Assembly: GCA_018902385.1 (NCBI GenBank)
Contig: JABSSW010000019.1
Coordinates: forward strand, 310,001 to 374,000
Source: Physcia stellaris
Taxonomy: Eukaryota > Ascomycota > Lecanoromycetes > Caliciales > Physciaceae
DNA: 64,000 nt
Reading direction: 5' to 3'
Below the pieces are notes generated by a model. The model ran no database searches. It saw only the letters and a program-made list of their open reading frames with translations, and was not told where the DNA came from. This document shows positions 16,374-64,000 of the stretch, piece after piece; within the stretch, counting starts at the first letter, position 1, and every line of letters starts with the position of its first letter. The position numbers and the translations under genes were made by a program.

Positions 16374-17247
16374 TGTGATGGTTTTCCAGTGGAGACGTTT
16401 GGCTTCTTGCTGTAAGGAATGCTATTAGACAGATAGCACGTAGAGTAGGATGGGGGACCATCGCGAAAGTCGGTTAGCGTAAGCTGCACGTTACCCGATA
16501 GCAACGTCGAGGATATGGAGGTAATAGTAGTGTGAGCGCCAGCTATAGGCTCTAGAGTTTTGAGGTTCAAAATGCATACAGCAGGTATTTGTAGGATTGT
16601 CGCTTGTGATCTTTAAATGATGCGGCAAGAAGAGCGCATATAGATTATTTCGGACATATTGGGGGACAAATATAGAAGCTCTGCCTCTAAGTTCTAACAA
16701 AGTTGTCATTGCGCGTCTCGTCCGAATTAGCTTATCAAAATAGAGGCCGTTGCGTGATATACGAGTAGATCTGGCACGAGAGAAAACTCGTAAACGCTTC
16801 TAAACGCGAAATCGCTCAATTAAGGTTGTCATTGCAGTCACTTCCTATTTTCTGCATCCCACCTCCCATTTTCCTACACACACTCCCATGCTCTAGCCTT
16901 ACAGTTATACCAACTATTTCGTATCGTGGTGGTGAGGTTTTCGCATGTCTCGCATGTGATTTAATACTCATGCGACTGCGAATTGTATCGTCGAAGTTGA
17001 TTAAGAAACAATTTAACATATTTGCCGTGTCGCACGCCTGACGAATGAAGTGTTCTCAATCTATTCGAACAGACTAGACTATCTTATCATCTTACATATG
17101 CATACAACGAGCATAAGTGTTATACAGACGCAAATATACAATGATTTCGATCATTGTGTGAAAATAATAAGAAATCGAATGTTCGAAAATATTGTTGTTA
17201 TTATTTGAAAAAAAATGCGAATAAAAAATGCAAATATGCGAAATAAA
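16374..17247. other. transition from gene-rich to AT-rich DNA
   Basis: Balanced composition persists to about 17040 and then drops sharply. No supported gene, apart from possible 5' exons of the neighbouring minus-strand gene before about 16709. Confidence 0.6.
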
Positions 17248-18162
17248 ATAAAATTTTCCTATAATAAAATATTCTGTAAATTCGTTTGACGCGAGTGATC
17301 GATCGAGAAAAATTCTGATCAATTTTGCGTTCGTATTTTTTAAATTCGATAATTTTCATCAATTGAAAGTTTAAGTTTTTAATGCGATAAATTATCAAAT
17401 TTTTTTCGTTCAATCATCGAAATTCATTTTGAATGCGAGAATTCGTACAGTTGTTTCGCATTTTGCACATCAATCAACAATCACATATGATTTTCATTTA
17501 TTTAATCAAAATTGTAAAACAAAATGAGCGCATTTCAAAACTGCAAAAATAACAAAAATCGATTCATTATCGCAATAATTTTGAAATTTCGAAAATTTCA
17601 TGATCAAATTTGTGTCAAATCGTCAATTGAAATGATTGCGAAAAAATTTCGCTCAACTTTTTGTCGTTCGTACAATTGTTTCGCAATTTGCACATTAATC
17701 GTCAATCACATATGATTTTCATTTAATGAATCAAAATTGTAAATCAAAACGAGCGCATTTCAACGTTTCAAAAATTATTGAAATTCGTCAATTATCGCAA
17801 TAATTTTGAAATTTCGAAAATTAAATCATTGTTAAATGTTTGCTCGTCGAATGTTTCGTTTCAATTCTTTCGCAATATTTGCAATGCAACGATGCGTTTT
17901 TCATTATAACTCAATGCGCATTCGCTCGATTTTCGATATTTTTGATTATTTGAATAAAATTCATTTCAAATTTCAAAATGAATTTTTGATTGTAAATTTT
18001 ATTTATTGAATGCAAATATTATTAACGTGCGAAATAGATGAAGTCGCGAAAAAATTGCGAAATTCTAATTTGAACGACGAGAATTTCGCAATCTTATCAA
18101 ATTTAGTTTTAATTCTGAAATTCTGCACGAAATTTTTTTGAAAAAATTCACGAACAAACTTG
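17248..18162 (+). repeat. dispersed repeat R, copy 1
   Basis: About 0.9 kb, closely matching 50617-51531 in the same orientation from TATAATAAAATATTCTG to CACGAACAAACTTGTT. It contains an internal partial duplication spaced ~220 bp (CGTACA(G/A)TTGTTTCGCA near 17445 and 17668, each followed by AATCACATATGATTTTCATTT). It has no coding content. It may be a solo LTR or a non-autonomous element; no target-site duplication was found. Confidence 0.75.
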
Positions 18163-18397
18163 TTAAAACATAAAAATGTATATAAAAAATGAAAAAAATG
18201 CAAAAAATGAAAGAAAAAAATGCAAAAAAAAAAAAACAATTAATATTAATTTAAACAAAAATTTCAATTATTTGTTTTAAATGCAACAATATCAAAATAA
18301 CAATAATTTTGAATAAATACATTGAATCAATGAATTAAAAAAATTATTTAAAAAACAAAAAACACATCATGTTGTTATATGAAACAATTCGTGATAC
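18163..18397. repeat. A-rich low-complexity DNA
   Basis: Runs of A and short GAAAAAAATGC-type units around 18185-18240, then AT-rich sequence with no coding signal. Confidence 0.5.
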
Positions 18398-18595
18398 ATA
18401 TTAAACGAATATGAATGATTATTATTGTATTACATGCAATATTATCGAAATTACGTACAATAATAAATACAATTTGATTGCGCAAATGTTTTTAATAATG
18501 ATCGATTTTGACACGTTTCGTTTAATCGATTAATTAAAAATTTTGATTTTATTCGTGTTCATATTTCAATTTTTCGTCATCGTACTTTTTAATAT
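18398..18595 (+). repeat. dispersed repeat S, copy 1
   Basis: About 195 bp matching 61793-61988 in direct orientation, beginning TAAACGAATATGAATGATT and containing GATTTTGACACGTTTCGTT. Non-coding. The two copies differ mainly at CpA/TpA and TpG/TpA positions. Confidence 0.75.
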
Positions 18596-18889
18596 TTTCA
18601 TTCGATGACAATTATGTTTATTGTATTCGTGAATGCGATTTTCATTAAATTTCAATTTTTGCATTGATTGTGATTTTTATTAAATATTAATTCGTGCAAC
18701 GACGTAATTTTCATTGAATTTCAATTTTTACGATCATTGATGAAAAAAACATTGAATTTTTCTAATCAAAAAATCGAATTCGAACGATTTCGAAAAAAAT
18801 CATTTTGAATTATTATGTAATTCGAATTTGAACACGATTAACGAATTCATGTTTTTAATCATAATTTGTCAAATTCGTATAATCGAATT
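18596..18889 (+). repeat. repeat copy A, target of gypsy element 1
   Basis: Contains short tandem-like units (ATTTTCATT(A/G)AATTTCAATTTTT around 18640 and 18710). The part from about 18710 matches the DNA at 32860-32976, which resumes at 48165. This suggests that elements 1 and 3 landed in two neighbouring copies of one older repeat. Confidence 0.55.
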
Positions 18890-19083
18890 TGTTATGCGTA
18901 AAGTGTGAATTGATTGATTTAGAAACTATGAACGACGAAATGTCAATCTATGTACAATAATTGCGAATCAATTGTCTGATCATTGTTCATTTAATATGAA
19001 ACGATGACAAAATTTTTGTCAAATGTTTTGCAAAAATATTCGATTTAATTTCAAATCATTTAATTTGATTTTATGTTATAACA
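18890..19083 (-). repeat. LTR of element 1 (3' LTR)
   Basis: 194 bp, TGTT...AACA termini. It differs from its partner at 32640 at about eleven positions by eye, about nine of them CpT/TpT or ApG/ApA. Confidence 0.92.
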
Positions 19084-19300
19084 ATCTGTCAATCAAAAAA
19101 AAATCAATATTTTCATTGAATTTCATGTTTTATCATCATGCGTAATCATGTCATGCATCAATTTATTTTTTTCGTTTTTTTTTGTCGTTGCGATCATCAA
19201 AATTTTGCGAATGATTGAATTCGTATTGCTCAATGAAATTTTGAAAATTCTGTAATTCGAAAATAAATCGTCATTCGTCATATTTCGATTCATAGTCGAT

Positions 19301-20500
19301 TCATTTGACTAGATATTGAGTTACGAAAATTTTGTTGTACTTTTTGATACGTTTGTCGATTAACTTTTCGATTTCATAAAATTTGTATTGATTCGTATCG
19401 TTTTCAATTTCAATGAAATCAAAATAATGAAAACGAAAACGATTGTAAAAATCAACGTCAACAAATGTTAATTCGAATTGTGCAATAAACACGACGAAAT
19501 GAATTCGTCACGTTGATGACAATTTCAATTTATACGCAAAACGTTTGATGCGTTCAAAAATTCGAAATGATTCGCATTTTTGTTGAAATAGTTTCGAATT
19601 TGATTTATCAAACAGCTTGTAATTTTTGTTGAATTGTAAATAAATTTTTTCGTTTTGTTTTAATCGAATCGAAATATGACGTGAATTATAATATATTTTG
19701 ATTTTGACAATCGCAAAATTCGTGACATTGACAATTTTTCGTTGATATTTCATGCGTTGAATTGACAAATTCTGTATTTTTGTTATGTTAAATGCGATTA
19801 AATTTGATATCGCGTTTTTGATTTTGAATTCGTATATAATTTCATTGAATGATAAATTTGTAACGATGTTAAACGTGTTCTTTAGTTGAATTTGAATTGC
19901 AAAAAAAATTAAAATGTAATCGATGTTCGAAAATTCAATGACGAAATATTTGATAACAATTTCAACAATTTGATTGATTCGTTTTGACGAATCATTCGTT
20001 TGCGAATGATAAATCATTGAAATTAACAATTTCGTGTTTAATTTGATGAAAAACATTTGTCAAAAATTCGACATGAATTTTGAATCGCGATTTAAAATTA
20101 TAATTTCAAACATTTTTCAATCGACGATCAATAGTTTGTTCAATAATGCGTTGATTCATTTTTTCGTTTCATAAATGTTTTTGTCGAAAATCAATAAAAT
20201 TCGACGAAAATGTTTACATGTTGCGAACATAATAATGTTCATTTCGTCGAACATAATTAAAATGAAATCAATCGTAATAATGTGAAATGAACGCGAAACG
20301 AATATAATAAACATGAATTTTTCGTACGATCGATGACGTTTGATTTGTGTCAATTGACAAATAAAACAATGTTCGATATATTTTTTAATTTTTCGCGAAA
20401 ATCGAAATATGTATAACGTATTGAAAATTTTGTCATAACATCGATGAATTTTCGAATGATAATTTTGATCGTGAATTAAACGAAATATTTTTCGTTTCAT
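19301..20500 (-). pseudogene. element 1 integrase remnant with chromodomain-like tail
   Basis: Read on the minus strand. The H2C2 zinc-binding region (YIEHCFICQLTQIKRHRSY) and FHIITIDFI lie in 20156-20500. The catalytic core C-terminal half has YHSQTNDSSKRINQ at about 20000. A chromodomain-like piece (EIEKLIDKRI...TQYLVK) is at 19301-19492. Frames are broken, so there is no functional enzyme. Confidence 0.8.
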
Positions 20501-20905
20501 TGTGACAAATATACACGATCGACGCGAATCAATGTCAACGTGATATATAATGTCATTCGTATTTATCGCGAAATTGATTTTTGTTTTGAATTTTTTTGAT
20601 ATAAATTTCGTATCGTCATTTTTTTGCTCATTGACGTTTCAATTTTTTTACGTTGTTTTCGAACGACAACGAAATTTGAAAATTTCGAATCGACAAATTT
20701 TGTTTTTTTTCGTGCATTCGAATCGTCAACGATTTTAACATCGTGATCATGTTTCGTCACGTTTTTTCGTTTTGATATTCGTTTTTGATTTTTTTTTTAA
20801 ATTTTTCGACATGACAATAAGAATGTTTTGAAAAACGTAACAATCGAAATTATTCGAAAAATCGATTATTTCGTCATGATATGTGTTCAAATCAAATTTA
20901 TTTTT

Positions 20906-21457
20906 TTAATTTTTGTCGATTTGTTCATTTTCAAACGTTAATTTTGATAACGCATTCGAAACAACATGATTTTTTTTGAATTTATATTTCATTTTCAATT
21001 TAAATTGTGACAGATAAATTGAAACACGAACAAAACGAAAGTTAAATTTATCGATGTTGTTCGAATTCATCGTGATTTGTTTAACGATAAAAATATTAAC
21101 GACATAATTCGTGAACACAACAATGATATTTTTGATTGTTTTTATTATATGTCGAATTTTTTTGACAATTCATATTAAATCACACATTTCGAATTCGATA
21201 AATCAATATTTGATTTCGATTTCGTTCAACATTCGATTTAAAAATAAAATGAATTCAATGTCGTTACGCTTGAATTTGTTTGAATTATTGTTTGTTTTGA
21301 AATGATAAATTATCGCGTCGAATTCGCGTCGTTTAAACGCGTCGATGTCGATGTACAATTTTCGATCGAAATTGAAATGTATCAAAAATGAAATTTTGTT
21401 AAAAATTTTTTGCAATAATCGATATGATTTTAATTTTTCAATTGAAAAATTGTTCAT
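20906..21457 (-). pseudogene. element 1 RNase H remnant
   Basis: Fragments FNFDRKLYIDIDAFKRREFDA (start of the RNase H-like fold) and FRFVRVSIYLSQFKLKMKY followed by NHVVSNALSKL, the typical C-terminal end of gypsy RNase H. Two frames separated by stops. Confidence 0.75.
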
Positions 21458-21583
21458 TACAGTTTTTTGCGAATAGATTTTGCGAATCGTTTATTTGTTG
21501 CTTGAAAATTGACGTAAAAATAAAATTTTGCGACGTTATAACGTGTTCGTTTTTTGAACATAAAACGCGACGAAATTTCGTAA

Positions 21584-22003
21584 TCATTTTGTAAAATTTA
21601 AATAAACTTTCAGATTTTTGAAAATATAAAAAAAATTCAATTTGATTATTGTTTTCAATTTATCGATTGCGATAATGAAATCAAAAACGTCAATTTTTTG
21701 ATCAAAAAATGCGATCGTAAAATAGTCGAAAAATGACTTTTTCGACGATAAATTAATTTCATAAATATTCAATCGTTCGAACATCGAATGAAAATAAATC
21801 ATATGTTTTTCAAAAATATTGAAAAAAACGACAATGTCGTTTACGTAAACACGAGCAAATTCGCGAAAATTTCGAAAAATAAAATCGATTCGTCGTTGTA
21901 CGTATGATGATGAATTTTTGAAATTCATCACGACAACGTTAAATTGTTTTTGTTTTTTATGTGAAACGACGATAAATTTATGTCTGTTTGCAAATTTTAT
22001 CAA
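21584..22003 (-). pseudogene. element 1 reverse transcriptase remnant
   Basis: Palm and thumb fragment with SSSYVQRRIDFIFR, then YVND where an active enzyme has Y-V-D-D, then the KSFF and FFDQKIDVF region. The second catalytic Asp position now reads Asn, and the upstream fingers region (to about 22650) is broken. Confidence 0.8.
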
Positions 22004-22882
22004 TCATTGATGAAAAAAACTCGCAACGTCAAAAACGAATATAAATTTGCATTCGACGACAATTGAAATAATGTTTGATTGAAAAAACATAAAATAAAAA
22101 TCGATTAAAATGATTTTGTTTAATTCGCGTATATTTACGACGATTCGATTTTTGCGTTTTGAATCATTTGATTCAAATATTGTTTTTCATATTGCGAAAA
22201 CAAAATAATCATGCGAAATGAATTGATTGATGTATTTTATTCGATTTTGAACGTGCAATTTATCGAAAATTTTATCAACAAATTTTCGATTTGCGAAATC
22301 GAAAAAATAAATTTTCGTTGTTTCGATTTTCGCGTCGAGTTTGAATTCAATTAATATTCATTTTTCAAACGAAATTCGCACAGTAAATTCGTTATCATTT
22401 CACAATTTTGAATAATTCTCGATTACATTTGCAAATTTAATTCGTGCGTTAATATCATCGCAAATCGTGATATTTGCGAACAAGATTTTTTCAACATTAA
22501 TGTTTGAATTTGAAACAAAATTGTTAAAATTTTCGCACGAATTAATTGCAAAATTGATCGTAAAATTGAAATTTAAAACGACGAAATTAAACGCGATCGC
22601 ATCGTGCAAACTTTCATGATTGATCGCGATAATCGCGTCAACGATCAAAATCGAAACATCAAATTTAATAATTTGTTTGAATCAATTGCGTGAAACAAAT
22701 TTATAAACATTAACAATTAAATGCGCGTATTTCGAATTAACTAAATAACATTTTTTTTCGTATTTTTGTACGAGTTTCAAACGCGTATTTTGAAAATGTA
22801 AACATTTTCAAAATTGACGTTGTTCGTTTGAATCATTTCTGTATGTGTATCAATGATATGAAAAATACGTTTTCATTTTAAT

Positions 22883-23433
22883 TTAAACGTTTAATTCGCG
22901 AAAACGTGAACATAAAATCGCGTTCAATAAATAGATTATTTTTTCACGTAATTTGAAAAAAATCGTAAAAATTGATTTAATCGATATTCTAATAATTTCG
23001 TTGACACGAGTCACGCGTTTGATCGACGATTCAACATTAATGACATTTAATTGAATTTTCATGTTTTTGCAATTTTCAATGATAATCATTTGTTTGTTTA
23101 CATTTATATTCATTCGTTTTGAATTCAATATATCATTGTCAAAAAAAAATTTGTTTTTAATTTTTTCATTATGTAAATTTGTCGAATGAACGTGACAATC
23201 GCATTTTCGTCATTAATCGAAATTTCGAAAATTCGAAAAATTAATGATATATAATTCGTCGTGATTACGACGACGTTTTCGATATCGCGAATTTTGAAAA
23301 ATTTTATATTTTGTCGCGCATGAATTCGATAATCAAATATTTTTTGCATCAAAAATTTGCGATCGATTAATGACGTATCGCATTCGATATCGACGCACAT
23401 ATCAATGAAAAATTGTTTTATGTTTGTTTTCAT
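22883..23433 (-). pseudogene. element 1 aspartic protease remnant
   Basis: A CVDIECDTSLIDRKF segment at 23125-23433 resembles the active-site D-(T/S)-G region of gypsy proteases, with the core Thr/Gly changed. The following frame (22883-23128) carries its downstream part. Confidence 0.6.
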
Positions 23434-23780
23434 CGTGACGTAACGTCACGAACGAAATTCGAAATTGAATCGTGTATTTGTTTTGACATTTGATTGTATG
23501 ATAAATGTTTGATAATTATGAACATTTTTCGTCGACGATGTGTCAAATTTAATCGAAATTGTCTGACACGAACGCAAATGTCGATGAAATTTGTTATTAA
23601 AATAAAATTTCGATTGACAACGTTTGCATAAATAAATTTTTGTTTATTTGATTGAAATATTCACAAAATATTCGAATAATTCATGAATCACATAATTTTC
23701 ATTAAATTTTTGAATTTCGAAATGTTTTTCGTCATAATATTCATCATTTATCATAAATATTTTTGATGCGTTTTCAGTAT

Positions 23781-24209
23781 TCATGCTGTGATTATCTTGA
23801 TAATTTTTTTCATCGTTTGAATAATTGTTTTTTGTTTTTTTTTTGCAAAGTACGTTCGTCGATATAATGTTTCATTTTGATTTGACGTTTCATTCTGATT
23901 AAAATAAATATCTTGTTTAAACGAAAACGAAAATGAATTTGAAAAATCAACAAAATATTGACTAAAACGTAAAAATTGCGAATATTGAAATCGCAAATCG
24001 AACGTGTTTCGATTTTTTTGAATTTCGTTTTGTTGCGTTTGTTGAAATCGATATTGCTGATTTTCGTATGAACGTTTTTGCATATTTTGTGTCGACTGTT
24101 ATCGATTTGAATAATCTAATTGATACGAACGTTGTTAAAAAATGTAAACGTTATTTTGCTTTTCAAACTGATACGATGTCGAATATTGAATCTGACGAAA
24201 TTGCGAAAA
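23781..24209 (-). pseudogene. element 1 gag, C-terminal piece
   Basis: A Gln/Asn/Tyr-rich linker (ENQQYRFQQTQQNE) typical of the end of gag. It is cut at 24209 by the insertion of element 2. The rest of gag resumes beyond 30738. Confidence 0.6.
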
Positions 24210-24529
24210 TGTAAAAAATTCAGAATTCAAAATCTGCGAAACGAGTTTCGCTTGCGAGATGAATTCGTCAAAAATTCAAATCAAGCAAATTCGAAACATC
24301 AAATCGATTATATCATGAAATCAACAGTTTCGTCATATTAATAAAATCAACGCAACAACGATTATCGCATCGATATTTGCGCATATGCGACAATTGATGT
24401 GTACGTTGCATTTAGCAAAACGTGTATATAACAAATCGTATGAAAAATAATTAATTTTGCAATTATTAATTTAAAAATTATTTTGTTTTCAATTATACAT
24501 TTTTGATGTCACATTTCACGAATTTTACA
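24210..24529 (+). repeat. 5' LTR of element 2
   Basis: 320 bp; pairs with 30414-30733. It retains several CT and AG sites (for example CTGCG, GAGTTTCGCTTGCGAG) that read TT and AA in the 3' LTR. Confidence 0.9.
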
Positions 24530-24578
24530 TTTTAATAATTATTATAATCATCAAATTAACATCATTCGTGTATACAAC

Positions 24579-25505
24579 ATGTTTTTTTTTTTTTTACACA
24601 TTTTCATCGAATTCGACGATGAATTTGTTTTTGATTCGTCAAAATCAAATGTCATCGCGAAAAAATATCGAACATATATAAAACAACAACATGTTCGATA
24701 CGAAACATTACGAAACGCATTTAATTTTTCAATCGTTCAAACAATTGTTTTTAAAAAAAAGTTTTTTTATATCAAAATAATGAAAGACAAATTCGATTTA
24801 TTTTCGAAAAACAATTATGCAAAATGAATTCAATACGTTTGAAAAATGAAAAATCAATTCGACATGAATCAAATGAACGATTATGCGAAAAATTTTGATA
24901 AAATTAAACTTTTCTTTGTTGTCATTTTTTTGAAAAAAAAATTTAACGCACAATTATTATGAAACGTCAAAACGAAAAACAATTTTGATCAAAATTATAC
25001 GTGAAAAAAATATGTCGATTTTTTCAAAAAAAATATCAAAAAAATTTTCATCAAAAAAAAAAATAATTTCGAAAAATACAAAAATTACAAACAATTGATT
25101 CATCAGTCAATAAAAAACTATAACGCACATCGTATCGTTTTGATTTCAAATTTACATTCATTCATGAAATTTTCATCAGCAATAAAATTGCAAAATTTCG
25201 TATTAAATTTCACGCAAAATAATCAGAACTTTCTGATCGAACAAAATATTGAAAACGATAAAAATTTGATTTTGAAACGTTTCAAACAACGAAAAAACAA
25301 CGAACGCAAAAAACAACGAAATATCAACAAAAATAAATTTGCGAACGATTTCAACAAACGCAAAAAAAACGACGAAAATTTTGATGCAAACGAAAACGAT
25401 AATCAAAATCAATTCAACAAAAATCGCAAAAAAAATCGAAAAAACGATAAAAAATTCAAATTTAATAATTTTAATCGAAAATCAATTAAAAATAAAAAAT
25501 TATGA
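24579..25505 (+). pseudogene. element 2 gag remnant
   Basis: Broken plus-strand frames rich in Lys, Asn and Arg, including a very basic asparagine-rich stretch at 25290-25490. The position between LTR and protease identifies it as gag; the sequence alone is weak. Confidence 0.5.
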
Positions 25506-25854
25506 CGTTGAATCAAAATCGAATACAAAAATATTCGAAATAATAACAAATGTATCGATTGCGATAAATTTGAATGCAATATCAACGATTGCAAAAACAT
25601 CAAATCGAATACACATTCGTTTGAAAAAAATTTTCGAAAATCGAAATCAAAAAAATAATCGATTTGATGATTTTCAATCAAATTGACACAAAAAAAAATT
25701 CAACATCAGACGAATATATCGATTTTGATCATGACGAATTTTTTGCGATTGATATCGAAATCAAAAACGTCAAACGTCGTCGTCGAAAATTTCGCATGAC
25801 TAAATGTAAAAAAACAATGATCAAAATGAACAAAAATTCGACGAAAAAAATAAA

Positions 25855-41266: not shown

Positions 41267-41912
41267 TCATAAATTCTCGTTTTTGAAAAGAACGTCGTCT
41301 CGATTTGAACATTTTTGTAAATTTATTTTCTCGTTGATGATTTGTTCATCGATTAGAATTTGACGATGATTAATGCAATTTTCATTTTTTCGATTGATTT
41401 GCATTATTCGTTCGTACAAATCGTTTTGAACGTCAATCGAACATAATTGCAATCGAAAAAACGACAACAAAATTTGTTTTTTATAAAGTTTTTGTTCGTC
41501 GTCATCGACAAAACGCAATTCAAACATTCGAATCAAAACGTTCGTTTTAACATTTTTGATTTCGAATTGATATTGAATTTTGATATTATTATCGATTAAA
41601 ATTTCTGTTCAACGTATTTGACGAAAAATAAAAATTTTGTTTGTCATGAAAATTTTCAAATTTTTGTGATCGATGTAAATTTCGACGAATTCGTCGATGT
41701 TTTCGAATTCGAATTTTCAATGTTTCAAACATCGAATAATGATTAAAAATTTTTTGTCGTATATTTCGTAATTGCATTCGACAAAAATCATTTTTTTGTT
41801 GAAAAAAATCATCGAATGAAAAATTTCTTCGTCATCGTATTGCGACAGAATTTCATTCAGACATCAATTCGATGAGTCAATTTCTAATATAATTTTACGA
41901 TTACGATCGTAA
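41267..41912 (-). pseudogene. element 4 RNase H / connection remnant
   Basis: Two short frames (41267-41536, 41589-41777) between RT and integrase. The first contains SFFRLQLCSIDVQNDLYERI, a segment also present in element 5 at 54531-54803. Recognised mainly by position and by that match. Confidence 0.5.
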
Positions 41913-42115
41913 TGTCGAAATATGAAAATTTCGATAATTTGTTTTTTCAATGTTTCGAACGTTTCATTGACGAAATCGATTCATTCGAAATCAGTTTTTT
42001 TTTTGATCATTCGAATCAAGAACTTGACGAGTTTGAAAAATGCTTTGATGAAACGACGATAAAAATTGCAAAAATTCACAAACGTTTGTATTTTTTTAAT
42101 GCAAATTGAACGAAT

Positions 42116-43237
42116 TCAATTGACGATATTTTGAATTTTTTTGAAATTCATACGTAAATTTTCTGTCGTCAATATGACGTTCAGAAATGAAATTTTCGTT
42201 TGAAAAAATTCGCATTTTTTGATATCAATTTGAAATTCGATTTTTTTCAATTTTTGAAACATTTGTGTGAAATGTCGTTCATGCTCTTTTCGAATTTTGC
42301 TGTAAATAAAAATATCGTTCAAATAAATTTGACAGAAATGATTAATATATTCGAATAACAAATCGTTCATGTAATGTTGTCAACTCGTCGAATCATTTGT
42401 TAATTCGAAAAATAATACATGATATTTGTAAATGTTCAACGAACATATAAAGATAATCAATTTTTCGTTTTGTGAATTCATTCGAAATTTATTGAAAATC
42501 GATATGATGTTCAGTTTGAACAAAAATTTGCAATCTATAATTCGAGCAAAAATTTTTTCAATCAATGATATAAAATATTCATTGCGCTTGATTATGACGT
42601 TTAATTTTCGATAATTCACACAAAAACGAAATTGTTCGTTCGATTTGACGACGAATAAAATGAACGATGCATACGATATTTTGCTTGAATTGATAAATTT
42701 CTTTTGAAAATTCTCGTGAAAATATTTCTGAAAAATTTCGAATTTTTTTGACGATAGAAAATAAACTCGATTTCGAAACAATTGTTTCGATTTTTCGATC
42801 AATTCGATTTTGTGATCGTAAAATTTATGAGAAAATAATTTATCGATTTTCTTGAAATTGAGCACGCTTTCGAATCGTTTAAAAAAATTAGAAATTTTTC
42901 GTTTCAATTTCTCGACGATTGCTTTCATGATTTTAAAAATTTTTTTGAAATCGAAATCGGAATCAGACTTTGTTTTGATTAAATTTTTTTTGACGTTGTC
43001 AATAATTTCATTTAACTTCTTCATGATTAGCGAGAATGTTTTGATTTTCTTTTTTTTCTTTTTTGATTCTGTCAGAAATTGATAAACAACGACGTCGATA
43101 AAAACGACGTTCAAAAAAACATCAGAATCGAAATTTTGTTCGTCGTTTTCATTATCAAAAGTCGAAATCTTGAATCGACGATTAGATCGTCGAGCAGATT
43201 TTTTGACTAGATTCGATTTTCGAACAGAAATTTTCAC
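42116..43237 (-). pseudogene. element 4 reverse transcriptase remnant
   Basis: A 285-codon frame (42380-43237) has RNRVYFLSSKKFEIFQKYF, SYASFILFVVKSNEQFRFCV, YRKLNVIIKRNEYFISLIEK and KYHVLFFELTND. The next frame (42116-42370) has HYMNDLLFEYINHF, the catalytic box as Y-L-N-D and SKIRKEHERH. Confidence 0.85.
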
Positions 43238-43650
43238 GAATGTAAATTGTTGAGAATTTCGTATGATTTTAATTCGTCGTTTTTTTCTCGAGAATTTGAC
43301 AAAAAATATTTTTTATCAATTTTTTCAATAGCATATCGGAAACTAGAATTCAATATGTTTTTGAAAGAAAATTTTTTTTCATTCTCGAAATTTTCGACGA
43401 TAAAAAAAGAAAATTTAATCTTGAACACAAATGACGTCGATCGTTTCTGAATAATCTAATATTTTTGAAAACTCATCGATATCGAGAATCTGTTTGACGA
43501 TACTGATGAAAAAAAATATAATTTTTTAGACGAGATTGAACGCTCGTTTTTGACTCTAAAAATTCTGAATATTTCGAAATGAGAACAGCGATCGAGTTTG
43601 AAAATAATTTTATCGTTTTTCATGTCGAGAATGATTTCGTGAACGTTCAT

Positions 43651-44019
43651 TCAGAACTTATTCAATATCAACGAATGAGTTTCGATTTTGATGATGAACA
43701 TAAAAATAATAATTTTCGAATGATTTTGTACAATAAATGTAAAATAAATGACATGAGTAATGAATTTAGTTTCACGATCATTGAATTCGTTGACGAATTT
43801 CGATCGTAATAAAATCACGAAAATTATTTGAAATGTTTCACAAATCATTTGCGCAATCTTTTCATCAATGAAAACGTATTCAATGACATTTGTATTCATT
43901 AATGTTTGCAAATTGTGTTCGTATTTATCAAAAATTAATGTACATTTAATCACTAAAAAATTGTTTTGAAATTTATTGAACGTGCTGAATGCTTTGAGCA
44001 TTGTTGAAATAAACAGCAT
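43651..44019 (-). pseudogene. element 4 protease remnant
   Basis: LMNTNVIEYVFIDEKIAQMI matches the protease active-site strand, with D-S-G-A reading N-T-N-V, followed by ITHVIYFTFIVQNH. Confidence 0.7.
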
Positions 44020-44204
44020 TTTCGTCGCGACTCTGAAAAAATTTAGACGTTTTTCGATTCATGATTAAAAAAAATTTCATTGCTGATATCATTAAGATAA
44101 TCATCAAAAAAAGTTTGATCGAATTCAAATTGAAAATTCATCAAGAATTCATTCATTTCGTTGATTGTCAGAATGTTTTTTTTTTGTTTAATCTTTTTGA
44201 ACAA

Positions 44205-45663
44205 TCAGATATCGATGATTTTAAAAAAAAAACAATTTCGTATCAGATGATTGAAATTTTCACAACGATAACAATTTTTATCGATGTCATTTTTATCATA
44301 AAGAATTTTCATGATCATTTGATCGACGACGAACATGATTTTTTTGACGTTGAACATGTTATCACGAATTACGATTTTGACAGTTGATGTTTTGAAAATA
44401 ATTCGTGAAATATTTTTAAATGTCGAATTTTCGAAACGTGTGATTTCAAAAAAATGTAATTTTTGATTCATTTTTTCAATCAATTTTTTTAAATTCTCGA
44501 TTGTTTCAAATCGATCGTTATTAACAATGACTCGTTGCAATTGAAAAGTGAACTTTTCGCGAAATTCATCGATCAGATTTTGTTTTGAATAATGAGACAA
44601 TTGACTGAACAACATCAAAAACTCGAAAAAAAATTTCGAAAAACGTTGATTGATACGCATGATAAAAGTTTTGAATTTATTGCGTACGTTTCGTTTTTTG
44701 TTTTTTTCAACATAAATCAGAATCAAAACATCAAAAATCATTTGAGAAATTTTGAAATAAACAATGTCGATTTTACGTCGAGCGAAAAAATGTTCGCGAA
44801 TTTTGTTTTCGATTCAATTGATGAATGTCGTTGTTTTGATATATTCGTCGACGAAATGATCAACGTTAACAATGAATTTGTTTTTGATCAATTGTTTTCA
44901 GATTTCGTAAAAAAAATCTGAAATGTTTTCACTGAATTTGAAAAAATTCGTCATTTTGACATTTTTATCTTTTTTATCGATAAACAGTGTGAAATTGGAA
45001 ATTGACGTTGTTGTGATTTTTAAAAAATTTATTTCGTTTTGCAATTTTACATTGCGATTGATCAATTTAACATTCTCGATTTTGAATTTGATGTCATTTT
45101 GAAAAATGAACGTTGTTGTAAAATTCATTCGAAAAATATTTATTTCGTCACGCAACGTCTGATTATTTTTTTTGAATTTTTCATTTTCGATGTTGAGTTT
45201 GAATTTATCGACATTGAGTTGATTTATATTTTTATTTTTTCGTCGAAATAAGCTGGCGATTTCTCGATTGTGTTTTTTGTTTTTTTTCGATTTTTTCGAG
45301 ATTTTTGAGCAACGAGTTATAATTTTTTACGTGAACGTTTCAATTTCAAACAATTTGAATTTTCGCGTCACGATCGATTTTCAGTTGATTCAACATTTGC
45401 AATATCGTGAAAAAATTTTTGCGAATTCATTGTTGAAATTGTTCGACGATACAAATGTTTATCGTATGTTTCGCATCGTTCGAATTGTAATTTGCGTTTT
45501 TCGAAAAAACGTAATCTAAAAAGATGTTTTTTATCAATCTGAATGAATCGACGATAGTTTGATCATTTTTCGAAAAAACTGCTAATTGTTGAATTTGACT
45601 AAAAATCTTGCGCTTAAACTTAAAAAAAATGATCACAAAAAAGATGTTGATAGAAATAAACAT
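44205..45663 (-). pseudogene. element 4 gag remnant with CCHC zinc knuckle
   Basis: The frame 44205-44741 contains the knuckle C-Y-R-C-x4-H-x4-C (CYRCENFNHLIRNC) near 44240 and a capsid-like helix region. Shorter frames extend to 45663. Confidence 0.75.
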
Positions 45664-54278: not shown

Positions 54279-54530
54279 AAATATGTCGATTCAACGTTGC
54301 AAAAAAATAATCAAAAAAATGAATAAATCATTTTTTCGATTTTCGAAAATTTTCGTACGTTGACATTTATAACAATTGCGTACGTATCGACGAACGAATT
54401 TGCGCATATTGAATCAATAATAATCGCGACGTATAAAATTTTTCATACGATTGAAATTTGAATGTTTCGAAATCGAAAATTTATGAATTTTTTTGAAAAA
54501 ATCAACAAATAAAAAAACGTCGACAAACAT

Positions 54531-55205: not shown

Positions 55206-55645
55206 TGTTTTTTTGAAAAAATTGAAAACTTTTTCGATTTTTTCAATTCATTCGAAATTCACAAATTTTTTGATCATTCGAATAAAAATTCGAATTTTTT
55301 TTGAAAAATCACGAATGAATCGTTTGTAAAAATTGACGAAATTCACGAAAATTTGTATTTTTTTCAAATTCGTAAAACGTTTTCAATTGACAATGATTTT
55401 TATTTTTTTCGAAATCATGCGAAAATCATTTATCGATAATATAACGTTCAAAAATGTCATTTTTTTTTTGAAAAATTCGCATTTCTCAATATTCATTTGT
55501 AATTCGATTTTTTTGAATTTTTTCAATATTTTACGAACGTGAACGATGTGTTTTTTTTGAATTTATTGTAAATGAAAATATCATTTAAATAAATTTGACA
55601 AAAATTGTTCAAAAAATTGAATAACAAATCGTTCATGTAATATTG

Positions 55646-56398
55646 TCAATTCGCGAATTCGTTGATCAATTCGAAAAATAATATTCGATATTTGTATGAT
55701 TTCATGAAAATAACGAACGTGATGAATTTTTCATTTTTTTCATTCATTCGAAATTTGTTGAAAATCGATATAATATTCAGTTTGATCAAATATTTGCAAT
55801 TTTGCATTTTGATTAAAATTTTTTCGATCAAAAAAATGAAATATCGATTGCGTTTCGTGATGTGATTAAATCGTCGATAATTCACACACAAACGTAATTG
55901 ATCGTTCGATTTGATTGCAAATAAAACGAACGAAACGTATGCAATTTGATTGAATACGATAAAATTTTTTTGAAAATTATTTTTCAAATATTTTTTGAAT
56001 TTTTGAAATTTGAATTCGAACAAAAAATATATTTTGTTTCGAAACAATGTATTGTTATCGTTTAAAAATTCGATTTTGTGATCGTAAAATCGATGCGATG
56101 ACAATTCAATTGTTTTTTGAAAATCGAATATTTTTGACAAATGTTTGAAATATTTGAAAATTTTTTTCATTATGCGTTCAAAAATCGATTTGATTTGTTC
56201 GTGTTTCAAAATTTTTTTGATCATAACAACAATTTTCAACGATTCAAAATTTGTTCGCAATGTTTTGAACGCGAAATCGATTTGATTGATCGTAATGAAA
56301 AAACATTGCATTTTTTGTTTTTTATTTTTGAAATCGACGAATAAACAAAAAAAAATTGCATCAATTATCGCGATATTCATTGAATCGTTTGAATTCAA
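55646..56398 (-). pseudogene. element 5 reverse transcriptase remnant
   Basis: A 250-codon frame with FRNKIYFLFEFKFQKFKKYL, AYVSFVLFAIKSNDQLRLCV, YRRFNHITKRNRYFIFLIEK and YKYRILFFELINE. The catalytic part continues in broken frames to about 55380. Confidence 0.82.
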
Positions 56399-56886
56399 TT
56401 TCGATAATGAAAAAATTTCGAATTGTTATTTTTTGATTTTTCAACGTTTGTTGCGTTGTTTTTTCAAGTTTTTTTTTTGATAAATGTCGTTTTCGTAATT
56501 GTTGAAATATCAATTTCTGAATCATTTGATTCGATGATTGACGATTCGTCATCGTCGTCGACGTTCGAATGAATTGAACATTCGAAACATTTCGAATCGA
56601 ATACATTTGATTCATTTTCAATTGTAAAAAACAAAAATTTGACTTTGAAACGAAACAAAATGATATATCGAAATTTTATTATCGTTATATATTTCGAATC
56701 GTTTTTTTGCGATAATAAAATATCACGACGTCAATTAAATACATTTCATCGACGATTTGACTTGAAAATTTTCAAACGTCGAATTTGAACAATTTGATTG
56801 AATATATTGTCATGATGATTGCATTTAAACGATTTGAAAATCAATTTATCGTAAATTATGTTCAATATGATTTCATGTTTGTTCAT

Positions 56887-57219
56887 TCACGATTTTTTTA
56901 AAATTATCGAATGATTATTCAAATCGATAATTAACAAAAAAACGATCAATTCGAAATGCAATTCTATCGTTAATTTAAAATATATGACATGAATTATTGA
57001 TAAAATTTGACGATCGTCGAATTCAATCAATGATTTCGATTTCAATAAAAATACGAATTTTATGTTCAACATGTTGCATACAAATTGCGCGATTTTTTTA
57101 TTAATGAATGCATAATCAATTGCATCAATGTTTATTAAAATTTTTAATTTATGTTTATTATCGTTGAATGATAACGTACAATTGATAATTAAAAATCGTT
57201 TGATAAAAAAATCAAACAA
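56887..57219 (-). pseudogene. element 5 protease remnant
   Basis: LINIDAIDYAFINKKIAQFV resembles the protease active-site region (D-S-G-A lost), followed by IIHVIYFKLTIELHFE, parallel to element 4 at 43651-44019. Confidence 0.65.
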
Positions 57220-57389
57220 ATCATCATCGTGAATAAAAAAATTTTTTAAACATTCATCAATCGCGTTTTTGATGTGAATTGTTAATTTTTCGAATTCGAA
57301 TCGTTCGATTCGACGATTAAATTCATGTACGATATTTGCATTTTATGTCAATGACGTTTTTGATGTTTGTGAACGTTCGAACATTTTTT

Positions 57390-58839
57390 TCAAACGTGAT
57401 TCAATTCGTCACATGTGAAACATTTGTTCGTGACGATCAATTTGTCAATCATCGAATCACGAAATTTGATTTTCACATTGAGATGAAAATGAATCGTTGA
57501 TTTCACAAAAAAAACGAAAATAGCAAATTTCGTGAACGATATCGAAATCGAAACGACAAAAATGAATTTGAACTGAAATAATTCAAAACGTTGTTGACGT
57601 GTTGTCGTTTTTTTTTTTGAAATTCGTTTGTCGATTGTAAATTTATTGAAAAATGATTTTGATTTCGTCAAAAATGATAATTTCACGAGAATATACGCTC
57701 ATAATTTCTTTCAGATTTCAGAATATTTTTTTCATTAATTTTTCAATTTTGATAATCTCGTTATAATCTGTTGAATTATTGAAACGAAAAAAAATGAAAT
57801 AAAACGATTGAAAATTTTGAATGTTCATGATCAATGTTCGAAATTAATTACGCATGTTGCGTTTGAAATCAAAATTATCGTAAATGTTTGACAGAAATTT
57901 CAACATCATAAATCAATTTTTGAAATGATTAAAATCGATGTCACGTATCGATTGAATGTGATCGTCAATTTCGTCGACAATTCAATCAATAACAAATGTA
58001 ACGACGAACAGATTCGTATTGTAATGATCATTGTTGATCGTCATTTTATCATGCATTTTTGTTTTTCACACACGTCAAATGAAATTCATTTCATCGATAA
58101 ACGTGAATGAATCAAAATGTTTGACGAAACGACGTTTTTTTGAAATGTTAAAAACAAACGCATCGTCGTCATCGTTGTTCGCACGTTTTTTTTCGTTGAT
58201 CGATAAAATTTGATATTTCAATTTCAACGCGTCGTACTTGTCTTGAAAAATATTATAAGCGACATCGTTTTGAATTTTCAATGAACGTTTTTTTGTTAAT
58301 TCGAAATTAATTTTTGCAAATTTGTTGATGTTGTTTTGAAATTCATTCGCAAACTTCTGATATTGATTAAAAATTTTCAAATAAATGTTTCGATTCGAAC
58401 GCAAAACATCGAATTTTTGCAAAAAATTGACGACATGATTTTCGATTCATCATTTCAATTGATTGACGTTGATGACGTTCAAAAAATGAATGACATCGTC
58501 ATTTTTTATCGATACATTTATACGCGAAAAAACGAATTTGCGACGTTTGAATTGAATAACAATTTTTTTCTCGTTGATGTTGTCGATTATTTGTTTCAAA
58601 TAACGATCGATTTCGACACGAAAAATTTCAAATGACGAAATCTCAAATGAAAAAAAGTTATGATGATTTCGAATCATAACGAGAAATAAAAAACTGACGA
58701 TTGTAAATAAAAAAAAGTAAATTTGTTTGTTGTTCGTTTTATCGTTTTTTATCGTCGAAAACTTCGTCGTTGTTTCGTCAAAAAAAAAATTCAAATCGAT
58801 TGTCTGATTAACAAAACTTTTTGTCGTTTGTTTCGTCAA
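57390..58839 (-). pseudogene. element 5 gag remnant
   Basis: The frame 57390-57686 ends in a half zinc knuckle (CFTCDELNHV). Frames at 58075-58422 and 58450-58839 are Lys/Asn/Phe-rich. Assigned by order and by the knuckle. Confidence 0.55.
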
Positions 58840-58918
58840 AAAAGTTTGATCGATTTGAAATTTTATTTTTAAACGTTCGCGTATCTCGACGAGCGATAAA
58901 AATGAAAACTTATTGTAA

Positions 58919-59154
58919 TATCATGAATCGTGTTTGAATAAACGTATTATTGATTAATTAGACGAAAACAATAAATTTGCAAAAACAAATAAATACAAAA
59001 TGATGAAATTGTAAACAATATGCGAACGTCAAGTTTCAATTCACGCTAATTTCGTCAAAAAATTAAAACATAATTCGATTTGAACATATTTGCTCAATCA
59101 TTTATCATATCAATTATTTATTTGTCAGATTTATTGTCAGACATGTTCGTAACA
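58919..59154 (-). repeat. LTR of element 5 (5' LTR)
   Basis: 236 bp partner of 52504-52753, followed by ATTAT at 59155-59159. Confidence 0.85.
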
Positions 59155-59159
59155 ATTAT

Positions 59160-59560
59160 GTAAATATTTTTGAACGAATGTTCGAAATATTTCAACGTTT
59201 TGTTTATTGCGCATGAACAAATTATCGTTATTGAAATTTTTTATCAAAAATTTTTTAATAAAATGTTTGTCGAATAGAAAATTAACGTCGAAATCAAATA
59301 CATAAAACATTTTCGTTAACGTGTTTTTATCATTTTTGACACGTATCGTCATTGAATCACATTAATTTGAATACAATTTTTTTTTTTCGATTTTGATCGT
59401 GCGTCTTTTAATCGATTTGAAAAATTCATTAAAAAATCGAAAATCGTTAATTATGTGTAACGAAACGTCGACATTTGTAATTTATACGAATTTGAAAAAT
59501 TTATTGATCAATTTTTTTGAAAAAACGACGATTTTTTTATATGTTTTTCATTGTTTGAAT
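59160..59560 (-). pseudogene. copia protease / pre-integrase remnant
   Basis: MTIRVKNDKNTLTKMFYVF and FLFDKHFIKKFLIKNF at 59160-59352 match the stretch after the copia protease. A broken upstream frame has LHIINDFRFFNEF, resembling the protease region. Confidence 0.65.
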
Positions 59561-59639
59561 CGATGTCGATATCGAAATTGAAATTATTGTTAAACGAAAA
59601 AAAATTTGCGACGTTGTACGTTTTATGTTTTATGTTTTT

Positions 59640-59995
59640 ATTTTTATTTTTGACAAATAATTTCGAAAGTTTTTTTTAAAAAACTTTGTTTGAATTGATA
59701 TGAAATTGAAATTGAATTTTGAATTTATCAATTTGTATGCGATCGAAATTTCGCATTTCAATAATTCAATGCGTTTTCGTCAAAATTTAACAAATATTAC
59801 AACATCGAATTTTTTTCATCGAATTTTACAATTTTGATTATATAAACGAAAATCATATTAAGTTTTTGATTGATGTGCAACGTGCGAAAAAATTGCATCA
59901 AAATTTTGATATTTTTCGTCAAAATTGATTTAATTCAATAAAATAATAAACTTTTTGAAAAAAAAACGATAAATATTTTTTTATGAATTGTGTTC
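59640..59995 (-). repeat. dispersed repeat R, diverged partial copy
   Basis: Contains GATTGATGTGCAACGTGCGAA and ends ATTGTGTTCTATTGT, features shared with the inverted R copies at 60888 and 62478. More diverged than the others. Confidence 0.5.
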
Positions 59996-60031
59996 TATTG
60001 TAAACAATTTTTTGATTTGTTGTTTTTTTGT

Positions 60032-60494
60032 TCATTTTTTTAATGTTTTCAAAAAATTGCATTCGACGATTCTGTGTGAATCGTCACTAAAAAAACAATT
60101 TTTAATTTTTTTCGTCATGATTTTGAAACGACGACGAAAATTTTCATCAAAATTAAAAAATCGTCGTTGAAATATGCGATACGATTGAAAACGATTGTTT
60201 TTGATCATTAACGTCGATTTAACGATTTTGTTCGCAATAAATTGTGTTTTTTTTTTACAATTTTTGAATAAATTTATCGATATCGAAATTGTTTTGTGCG
60301 TTGATTGTATCACGAATAATATCGTATTCGATAAACAAAAATTGTAAAAATGTTTGAAAACGACGTTTTGATTTGAACAAATTCGTTATATTTGATTGCA
60401 TGTTTGCAATTTTGCGATTTTTTTTGATAATATCAATGTAAACGATTTCGATAATCATATTTGAAAATTTTTTATAATTCATGAATTTTTGCAA
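60032..60494 (-). pseudogene. copia gag remnant with zinc-knuckle trace
   Basis: FLFIEYDIIRDTINAQNNFDI at 60255-60494 is a strong copia gag motif. The next frame has CFFSDDSHRIVECNFL, a knuckle with its second Cys changed to Ser. Confidence 0.75.
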
Positions 60495-60887
60495 ATATTG
60501 TCGTTCAATTGTAACAAATTTTTGTTTGTATTTGTTGATAAAAAAATTTTAAATTTTTTTGACAATTTTCAATTTCGTTATCATTTTTTGATCATCGTTA
60601 TCAATATATTCAATGAATTGATATTATGTTTTTGCGTCGAATTTTTTTTCAATGTTTTTATTATCAAAATTCAAATCGACATTTTATTTTGATTTTCGAA
60701 AATCATTCGATAATAATTTCGACATATAATTTGAATCGACAATTGTTCAAATTTTTTCGTCGATAAATCATTGTTTTGTTAATTTGAATTATTTTTCGCA
60801 ATTTTAACGAATAAAAATATCGCAAATTCGACACGCGTTGAATTTGTTGAATTTGAAATCGTTCATGATGCGTGATATGATATGTAA

Positions 60888-61570
60888 TAACAAACAGATT
60901 CGAAATTTTTTTAAAAAAAATTCTTTCAAACGTCTTCAGAATTAAAGTTGAATTTGATAAAATTGTCAAGTTCGACATTTCGTTATTGTTTTGCGATCTC
61001 ACGAAATTCGCATCTTAATAGCATTTACACTCAATGAATAAAACATATAATCGAAAACTCATTTTGAAATGCAAAGTGAATTCTATTTAAACAATCAATA
61101 ATTTCAAAAATCTGACGTGATCGCATTGAGTTATAATGAATATCGCATCGTTGTTTTGCAAACATTGAGAAAAAGTTGAAACGAAACATTTCGCGAACAA
61201 ACATCTCGATGACAATGATTTAATGTTCGAAATCTCAAAACTATTGCGATAATGAATCAATTTCTGTTATTATTGCGACGTTGAATTGCGTTCATTCTGT
61301 TCTACAATTTGAACTAGATAATTGAAAATCATATGTGATTGTTGATTGATGTGCAAGTTGCGAAACAACTGTACGAATTCTCGCATTCAAAATGAATTTT
61401 GATGATTGAACGAAAAAAAATTGATAATTTATCGCATTGAGAACGTGAATTAAATATTGATTGAATTTATCGATTTTAAGAAATACAAACGCAGAATTGA
61501 TCAGAACTTTTTTCGATCGATCATTCGCGTTAAGCGATTTTAATGAATATTTTTTTATAAATTGTGTTCT
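60888..61570 (-). repeat. dispersed repeat R, inverted copy 3
   Basis: Reverse-complement relative of 17248-18162, from AACAAACAGATTCG to CATTCGCGTTAAGCG and ATATTTTTTTATAAATTG. It retains more CT/AG sites than copies 1 and 2. Confidence 0.7.
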
Positions 61571-61792
61571 ATATAAATTTTTTTTATTTGTTGTATTTCG
61601 TAAAATATTTTCATAATCGTTTATTTATTCGTTGAATTAATGATCAAATTCGAATATGTAAAATATTTTTACAATTTTGACGCGATCGAATCGATGAAAT
61701 ATTTTCATTGTTGTTTGATTTTCGCGATTTCGTAATCGAAAAATTGATATTGACAATCACAAAAAATTTATGTTAATTCGAATTTCATAATT
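61571..61792. other. AT-rich unassigned DNA
   Basis: No coding signal and no match seen elsewhere in the window. Confidence 0.4.
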
Positions 61793-61988
61793 TATTAAAC
61801 GAATATGAATGATTGTTATTGCATTACATACAATATTATCGAATTTACGTACAACAATAAATAAAATTTGATTACGTAAATGATTTTAATAATAATCGAT
61901 TTTGACACGTTTCGTTTAATCGATCAATCAAAAATTTTGATTTTATTCGTATTCATATTTTAATTTTTCGTTATCGTACTTTTTAACA
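61793..61988 (+). repeat. dispersed repeat S, copy 2
   Basis: Direct copy of 18398-18595 with differences mainly of CA/TA and TG/TA type. Confidence 0.75.
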
Positions 61989-62224
61989 ATAAATCAATCA
62001 TATTTTTCGATTAAACATATTTATTGTTTTGAATTTTTAATATTTTAATTTTTTTTCAATAATAATTGAATTGATCAAAAATAACAATTTTTGAATAAAA
62101 CACAATTTATAAAAAAAATATTTTGCGTTTTCTTTTGAAATTTTAAATTTATCGAATAAAAAATTACAAAATTTTCAAAATTCGAATTACGAATATCAAA
62201 ATTTGATTATTACGTTTATGCAAT
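61989..62224. other. AT-rich unassigned DNA
   Basis: Nothing recognised between repeat S copy 2 and the R fragment. Confidence 0.4.
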
Positions 62225-62461
62225 ATTTTGCAATTTGCACATCAATCAATAACAACATATAATTTTTAATTATATAATTCAAATTGTAAAACAAAATAAA
62301 CACAATTTATCATTATAATAAAAACAAAAATCGATTCATTATCGCAATAATTGTGCGAAATTTGATTTTAATGTAAAAATTTCGCAATTTTATCAAATTT
62401 GACATTAATTTTAAAAGTTTTTAATGAAATTTTTTTTAAAAAATTTTCGAATTTGTTTATT
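62225..62461 (+). repeat. dispersed repeat R, forward fragment
   Basis: Starts GCAATTTGCACATCAATC and ends with the R 3' part (CGCAATTTTATCAAATTTGAC). It faces the inverted copy that begins about 16 bp downstream. Confidence 0.6.
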
Positions 62462-62477
62462 ATAATATAATATTACA

Positions 62478-63380
62478 AATGTGCTCGAAAGTTTTTTTAA
62501 AAAAAAACTTTATTGAAAATTCTTAAAATTAGAATCAAATCTGATAAAATTACGAAATTTTCGCAATGATTTCGCACGCGTTTTGCGTTTTTATCAATTT
62601 CGTATCTTAATAACATTTGCATTCAATAAGTAAAACATACAAACGAAAACTCGTTTTGAAGCACGAAATGAGCACTATTCAAATAATCAATAATTTCAAA
62701 AATTTGTCGTAATCGCATTGAATTGTGATGAAAATCGCATCGTTGTTTTGCAAACATCGCGAGAAGTTGTTTCGCAAACAAACACATTTTTGATTGCAAC
62801 ATCGTTTTTCAAATTTCAAAACTATTGCGATAATAAATCGATTTTTGTCATTTTTGCAACGTTGAATTGCGCTCATTCTGTTTTACAATTTTGTTCACAT
62901 AACTGAAAATCATATGTGATTGTTGATTGAAATGCAAAATGCGAAAAAATTGTACAGTTTACGAAAAGTTGAACGAAACGTTTTCGCAAACATTTTTGTT
63001 TGCGATCTGACACAAATCTGACAAAAGCATGATCTTTCAAGTCTCAAAACTATTGCGATAATGAATCGATTTCTGTTATTTTTGCGACGTTAAATTGCGC
63101 TTCTTCTGCTTTACAATTTGATTTAAATAACTGAAAATCATATGTGATTTTTGATTGATGTGCAAATTGCGAAACAATTGTACGAACTTTCGCATTCAAA
63201 ATGAGTTTTGATGATTGAACGAAAAAAATTTGATAATTTATCGCATTGAAAACGTGAATTAAATATTGATTGAATTTATCGACTTTAAAAAATACAAACG
63301 TAAAATTGATCAACATTTTTCTCGATCGATCATTCGCGTTAAACGATTTTACTGAACATTTTTTTATAAAATGTGTTCTA
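62478..63380 (-). repeat. dispersed repeat R, inverted copy 4
   Basis: Inverted R copy. An internal unit (CAAAACTATTGCGATAAT...CATATGTGATT) occurs twice, near 62815 and 63046, as in copy 1. Confidence 0.68.
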
Positions 63381-64000
63381 TTGTTACGAACATGTTTGAA
63401 ATCTCGATTGAAATTTTATTTTATCAACAAAAATTTTTATAAAAATTAACGTAATTTAAATTTAACACACAATTTATTTTAAACATTCGATCGTTTTGTA
63501 CATATTTTTTTCTAAATCAAATATTTTCGTTATATTATTTGTTTTTTCAATATGCGTTTTACATTATATTTGATTTTTAAACGAACGATGTAAATTTCAT
63601 ATTCGTTGAAACGATTAACGAATAAAAAACACGATCGTTTTCAATCAATTTCGTGACGATTTCATTTTCAACACGATGCGACAAACGTGTATCGAATTCA
63701 ACATTTATTCAATCATTAAAATTAACATTTTGTTTTATCATATCGAATGACAAAATCGAAATTCGTTTTAACGCATTTGAATGTTATAACATTAACATAT
63801 TAACATAATTAATTAAATAATTAGAAAATAATTGTTCGAAAATTATAATATTTTGACACATGTATTTAATCAACAATTTTCTCGATAATTACACAATTTA
63901 TTCTTTTTATATTACAAACATTTGTATTATAATATATAATAACATCATCAAATTTTGTTTTGTATTTTTGATTGTTGACAAAACGATCAAATGTTTTTTT
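63381..64000. other. AT-rich unassigned DNA to window end
   Basis: No gene, domain fragment or repeat match recognised. Confidence 0.4.

Follow-up and report, generated by a model that had tools for sequence, protein, structure and literature searches.

The target rule of a mutated transposon block in Physcia stellaris

The window, by which we mean the whole 64,000-nucleotide stretch analysed here (C19:310001-374000 of a 44-Mb, 147-contig version of the Physcia stellaris genome), passes from ordinary gene DNA into decayed transposons that were probably mutated by repeat-induced point mutation (RIP), or a RIP-like process, with an unusual target rule. This genome version is slightly smaller than the published assembly, which has 46.6 Mb in 184 scaffolds at 43.3% GC (PMC7513301). 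The parts of the window are as follows.

1..16400, no strand: gene DNA, used as control, with normal CC/CT content
17001..17100, no strand: edge between ordinary DNA and mutated block, from 100-base counts
17050..64000, no strand: AT-rich decayed transposon block, almost without CC/GG, low in CT/AG and retaining CpA and CpG; continues to the window end

GC content drops from 0.487 in 1-16400 to 0.259 over 17041-64000, and the transition, at about 17,050-17,100, is complete within roughly 100 bases. Dinucleotide counts for 17101-64000, with expectations from the base counts of that block, agree with the first-pass annotation, which had described a loss of CpT and CpC with retention of CpA and CpG. 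CC and GG together occur 6 times in 46.9 kb against ~1570 expected, CT and AG are depleted four- to fivefold, and CA, TG and CG all exceed expectation. The depletion pattern is alike on both strands.

Observed/expected, 17101-64000
CC 1/736; GG 5/832
CT 445/2233; AG 527/2259
CA 2745/2125; TG 3029/2373; CG 2686/783
TA 2764/6443

Occurrences per kb, block vs gene DNA (1-16400)
CpC 0.06 vs 54.4
CpT 10.4 vs 65.6
CpA 61.6 vs 69.8
CpG 57.3 vs 53.5
TpA 58.9 vs 48.9

The signature reaches the end of the window and is present again at C19:414001-424000 (L038). Standard RIP indices do not register it: TpA/ApT is 0.43 and (CpA+TpG)/(ApC+GpT) is 1.43, and none of the 92 one-kb windows of the block passes thresholds that we set ourselves (product >1.1, substrate <0.75, composite >0.01). 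Retroelement remains are recognizable within the block.

42173..42646 (C19:352173-352646), minus strand: match to the reverse transcriptase domain RVT_1, with 1 TGA inside; decayed retroelement
42380..43237, minus strand: 285-aa open frame of the same retroelement, containing no Pro, Gly or Trp; used to query proteins in the search below
41501..44500, no strand: segment belonging to a repeat family that gave at least 46 match pieces across the genome; the differences among six aligned copies lie mostly at remaining CpT
55655..56425 (C19:365655-366425), minus strand: second reverse-transcriptase-like stretch, 42% identical to protein P0307

To the left of the block, Pfam matches mark a PolyA_pol head domain (2664-3536), Tti2 (6197-6985), Syja_N (SacI; 9794-11053) and DUF7703 (12222-13745), and a tRNA-Cys (gca) lies at 14925-15009. 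A 374-aa open frame on the minus strand (7547-8671) has no Pfam match.

Direction, context and distribution of the changes

Because composition alone gives no direction, copies of repeat families were aligned. The reference for family 1, L007 (C12:58812-62288), has an RVT_1 domain in a 1151-aa open frame and 53% GC. At least 41 genome matches to it, itself included, span 100 to 69% identity among the candidates scored (40 of 236), and from these 41 we picked six decayed copies. C-to-T changes relative to L007, sorted by the 3' neighbour of the C, were:

L040: CC 379/488, CT 187/423, CA 16/446, CG 10/462
L041: CC 425/489, CT 212/423, CA 16/445, CG 11/461
L042: CC 457/491, CT 327/432, CA 23/447, CG 10/462
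L043: CC 446/490, CT 313/425, CA 35/447, CG 13/462
L044: CC 474/491, CT 352/431, CA 29/447, CG 12/462
L045: CC 450/489, CT 339/427, CA 42/446, CG 40/461
L006 (undecayed control): CC 24/491, CT 20/431, CA 17/447, CG 14/462

All six copies share the same order, with CpC changed at 78-97% of sites, CpT at 44-82%, CpA at 4-9% and CpG at 2-9%, and the undecayed pair L006/L007 gives a background of 4.9, 4.6, 3.8 and 3.0%, respectively. Change at CpA and CpG is not above this background in L040 (p 1.0 and 0.54) or in L044 (p 0.095 and 0.84). The pattern recurs in family 2, where five copies compared with L053 changed 131-137 of 142-143 CC and 267-321 of 440-449 CT, with 28-35 of 687-695 CA and 23-31 of 718-734 CG. 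In family 3, the window's own (six copies, all pairs), 55-86% of remaining CT changed, along with 3-15% of CA and 1-10% of CG. These three alignments uphold, beyond composition, the earlier proposal that the loss reflects context-specific C-to-T change at C-pyrimidine on both strands. As a first-order rate ratio, CpC exceeds CpT 1.8-2.9-fold (five copies). Neither the base just before the C nor the second base after it shifts the rate more than about 1.6-fold, so that the immediate 3' neighbour decides.

Such changes were seen in the transposon families but not in the sampled gene DNA. In 20 two-kb stretches placed blind on the genome and cut into 80 half-kb bins, 6 bins were below 35% GC, with CpC making up jointly 0.3% of their C contexts, and the other 74 were normal. 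Of 30 RVT_1 loci, 23 had GC <35% and CpC at 0 to 3.3% of C contexts; one (L010) was intermediate, at 37% GC and 7.8%, and the remaining six had 47-53% GC and 21-27% CpC. No CpA-type signature was seen among the loci profiled for C context. A genome DNA search with L008 gave no match besides L008 itself. The first-pass annotation had named two observations that would undo its reading, CpA-to-TpA as the dominant change in family alignments and the same CC/CT depletion in single-copy DNA. Neither was found: CpA changed at 16-42 of 445-447 sites in the six family 1 copies (17/447 in the control), and the gene DNA sampled (1-16400, L035-L037, L039, L046 and the 74 bins) showed no such depletion.

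The least changed copy, L040 (C95:25001-28600), bears on the mode of action. Substitutions of other kinds are few in the youngest decayed copies; L040 carries 592 C>T/G>A changes vs 50 others, and in its first 500 alignment columns C-pyrimidine sites were mutated at 51/67 on one strand vs 2/53 on the other (p 4e-17). Strand switches along the copy numbered 195 vs 235 in shuffles (standard deviation 9). The patch and the scarcity of switches suggest that at least one round acted along one strand of a stretch, and the excess of C-to-T together with the patch points to a burst rather than slow decay. The patch, of ~500 bases, may have been left by a single round.

The stops found in transposon domains are mostly TGA, as expected from the effect of the rule on codons. 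Ten DDE_1 transposase matches contain 44 TGA, 3 TAA and 0 TAG, and RVT_1 matches (149 of 150 match rows, transcribed by hand) contain 249 TGA, 33 TAA and 3 TAG; TGA, from TGG, is the chief stop created. CpA-type RIP is expected to convert CAA and CAG to TAA and TAG.

DNA methyltransferases and related proteins

Four PF00145 matches, in three genes, were found in the genome, so that the search for RID and DIM-2 genes proposed in the first-pass annotation yielded two RID-clade genes and one DIM-2-like gene. No DNMT5 is among these PF00145 matches, and no search aimed at DNMT5 was made. Marks of the RID/Masc1 clade are PCQ in motif IV, a motif VI that reads EQT or EET and not ENV, and a target-recognition domain that is short, with 80 aa in PaRid (PMC6709928). 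PPCQ and EQT are present in the product of the gene at C5:499k (P0001, 932 aa), whose target-recognition part is also short: counted by eye and with our own motif borders, ~63 aa separate the motif VIII-like stretch from the CITT stretch. The gene at C6:792k (L001, C6:790057-794028) has PPCQ and EET; its PF00145 match spans 2 TGA, which are probably introns, because the DNA is of normal composition and a 524-aa relative (P0128) exists. Relatives of L001 are 60-94% identical to it, one of them from Heterodermia. The gene at C3:341k (L002) has SPCQ, ENV in motif VI and PF25423 (DUF7893). ENV and a DUF7893 ahead of the catalytic domain would mark DIM-2, and we call the gene DIM-2-like.

A quick tree was built from 45 of 193 proteins plus two of our own frames, 10 of the 45 being dropped where the motif pattern missed the domain start. 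In this tree, enzymes of Aspergillus and Talaromyces form a group with the C6 gene and its relatives from lichens (Shimodaira-Hasegawa-like approximate likelihood ratio test, SH-aLRT, 91), the C6 gene thus standing apart from the main Lecanoromycete RID group, and the C5 gene falls in a group including Usnea, Heterodermia and Pseudocyphellaria; the DIM-2-like outgroup has a very long branch and drew a program warning. In Neurospora, RID is needed for RIP of new repeats and older repeats are mutated without it (PMC11969663). The first observation makes a RID-clade enzyme the first candidate for the mutator in Physcia, and the second keeps DIM-2 as a candidate.

Protein sequences hint at related decay elsewhere. 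A CpC-first rule removes Pro (CCN) and Gly (GGN) codons and spares Gln, His, Cys and Met. When the 285-aa frame was compared with 5.8 billion proteins, 376 hits were obtained. Among the 120 listed, from which composition was taken, 80 lack P and G and contain Q 2.9, H 2.1, C 1.2 and M 2.2%, close to the values of the 13 with >3.5% P+G, which contain Q 2.9, H 2.2, C 1.2 and M 2.4%. In 39 pairs of hits, Q changed in 16%, H to Y in 13/198, M to I in 15/134 and C to Y in 5/123; the change of every Pro and Gly follows from how the hits were selected, and information comes solely from the retained Q, H, C and M. Individual pairs, with changes assigned to C-pyrimidine (CpY) or C-purine (CpR) type, gave:

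P0252/P0259: CpY-type 35, CpR-type 0, total 41
P0311/P0296: CpY-type 28, CpR-type 3, total 50
P0303/P0269: CpY-type 22, CpR-type 2, total 37
P0309/P0269: CpY-type 31, CpR-type 2, total 42
P0303/P0307: CpY-type 29, CpR-type 8, total 53
P0311/P0307: CpY-type 41, CpR-type 11, total 73

P0307 and P0285, which have no P or G, match P. stellaris at ≤51% identity among the candidates scored (101/867 and 96/868) and so appear to come from other organisms. In P0311/P0307, 9 of the 11 CpR-type changes are R to W, Q or H; in the source organism of the P0307 fragment, CpG is possibly hit too, under a CpC plus CpG rule. Target rules may therefore differ between organisms, and the protein data suggest a loss of CpC outside Physcia too, although the query itself lacks Pro and Gly and hence favours similar hits. 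In a viral contig search for related loci, 0 of 600 pattern matches were confirmed.

Interpretation, alternatives and meaning

We consider RIP, or a RIP-like process, with the rule CpC > CpT >> CpA, CpG to be the probable origin of the block, at a probability of roughly 0.78. In this scheme, a C in repeated DNA, on either strand, would become T fastest when followed by C and about 2-3 times more slowly when followed by T, and a C before A or G would be left alone. By analogy with Neurospora, the process would act around the sexual cycle via homology sensing. The mutator would be a RID-clade DNA methyltransferase with altered 3'-neighbour preference, C5:499k (EQT) and C6:792k (EET) being the candidates, and the DIM-2-like enzyme (C3:341k) would be a less likely alternative. 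The earlier suggestion of a different methyltransferase or deaminase specificity stands as a suggestion.

Like RIP in N. crassa, which involves RID and DIM-2, the Physcia process shows dense C-to-T change on both strands of repeats (in three families) and spares unique DNA (in the genome sample), in a genome with RID-clade genes, two in number, and a DIM-2-like gene. The difference lies in the context: N. crassa prefers CpA>CpT>CpG>CpC (PMC5496416), whereas in Physcia CpC exceeds CpT and CpA and CpG stay near background. For Trichoderma reesei, the same source ranks CpA level with CpG, CpT after them and CpC last, the sign between CpG and CpT being illegible. Other Pezizomycotina are described as using CpA, or CpA and CpT in either order (PMC4352252, PMC10998396, PMC6180176, PMC2621366, PMC4522978). 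CpT is targeted, as in Physcia, in Magnaporthe, Botrytis and Sclerotinia (PMC4352252), Anisogramma (PMC10998396) and Colletotrichum truncatum (PMC6180176), and it even comes first in M. oryzae and B. cinerea T4 (PMC4352252, Table 2), in 5 of 13 families of C. truncatum (PMC6180176, Table 5) and, as CpT to TpT ahead of CpA, in the N. crassa Tad1 family (PMC2621366). In these fungi, however, CpA is targeted too, and the accounts of their preferences do not name CpC as a target. One paper calls CpT to TpT dominant in RIP-capable fungi, at odds with its own CpA-based indices (PMC7882544), and a Rhizoctonia table has CpC as the densest type of single-nucleotide polymorphism under the heading CpG-biased (PMC4014442). 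In basidiomycetes and Tuber, transposons also undergo C-to-T decay, but there it is CpG, kept in Physcia, that is targeted (PMC4352252). Cladonia rangiformis resembles Physcia in its very AT-rich decayed transposons with sharp borders and its RID and DIM-2 homologs; RIP is defined there by GC content, and the main text contains no CpA, CpT or 'dinucleotide' (PMC12542154). According to a 2025 survey of 1,239 fungi, a preference for CpA is common to RIP-like defences, and the four classes in which it reports RIP-proficient species do not include Lecanoromycetes (PMC12543289).

The claim that the context is unlike either CpA-type RIP or CpG decay thus holds in part. The context differs from both, and we found the CpC lead and the CpA sparing described nowhere; CpT signatures, together with CpA, have been described in several fungi. 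A search of RIP-context literature, which did not cover PMC4188875 (Sclerotinia, 'CpY' once), found no report of CpC-first RIP. What appears to be new is the CpC lead and the CpA sparing; RIP itself is known. Judged from the DNA, the process is best filed as RIP-like with inverted context, since the CpA dominance of canonical RIP was not seen.

Among the alternatives, the one we take most seriously, although it is unlikely, is slow decay, in which a methyltransferase, for example a DIM-2-like one, would methylate CpC/CpT in silent transposons and 5-methylcytosine would then deaminate spontaneously. The presence of a DIM-2-like gene and a 3'-neighbour context that suits a C5-methyltransferase are in keeping with it, but it accounts poorly for the ratio of 592 to 50 in L040 and for the one-strand patch of several hundred bases, both of which point to a burst. 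An AID/APOBEC-type cytidine deaminase directed at repeats, in place of a RID-type enzyme, seems more improbable still. Such enzymes work by changing C to T on single strands, but the known ones have their context set by the 5' base, and in Physcia no such dependence was found, the 5' base having at most the ~1.6-fold effect given above. A search of the genome for PF08210 (AID/APOBEC-type) gave no match, and a control was likewise silent, so that absence cannot be concluded from it.

Misread ordinary CpA-type RIP or CpG decay is very improbable. A CpA-index signature has been reported in the lichen fungus Endocarpon pusillum (PMC3897900), but in the Physcia block the two index values given above count against it, as do the 92 windows, none of which passes. 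CpA changes at or near background, and CpG methylation decay would deplete CpG, which is instead kept, with only 10-40 of 461-462 sites changed in family 1. Both processes were ruled out by the family alignments. Least credible of all is a base-calling artefact or neutral AT drift: the assembly does use Nanopore reads, but the published one also uses about 30-fold Illumina data (PMC7513301), gene DNA of the same assembly is normal, and drift would not spare CpA and CpG.

Several observations weigh against RIP with a CpC-first rule. The case rests on the DNA of one genome, and CpT-biased signatures in other fungi blur the border with known RIP. L006 (C5:1165021-1168497) and L007 are 95% identical over 3.4 kb and carry no CpY mutations. 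Older copies show more change of every kind (L045, CpA 9.4 and CpG 8.7%; L052, CpA 10-15 and CpG 7-11%). The one-strand patch comes mainly from L040, L041 giving a weak effect (p 0.009; 258 switches vs 269, standard deviation 9).

On a wider scale, we give even odds to the idea that RIP in a whole fungal group beyond Physcia is driven by a RID-clade enzyme whose 3'-neighbour rule has been re-set (CpC > CpT, with CpA and CpG rejected), and that this RIP has been overlooked because common indices seek a gain of TpA and a loss of CpA. Surveys that rely on indices can class such genomes as RIP-free, as 0 of 92 windows pass in a heavily mutated block. The damage that a CpY rule does to genes is also distinctive: TGG becomes TGA, proline and glycine are erased, and glutamine codons are untouched. 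The near-exclusive opposite preference of Physcia, with 0.06 CpC per kb left, offers a sharp handle on what determines the target choice of RIP.

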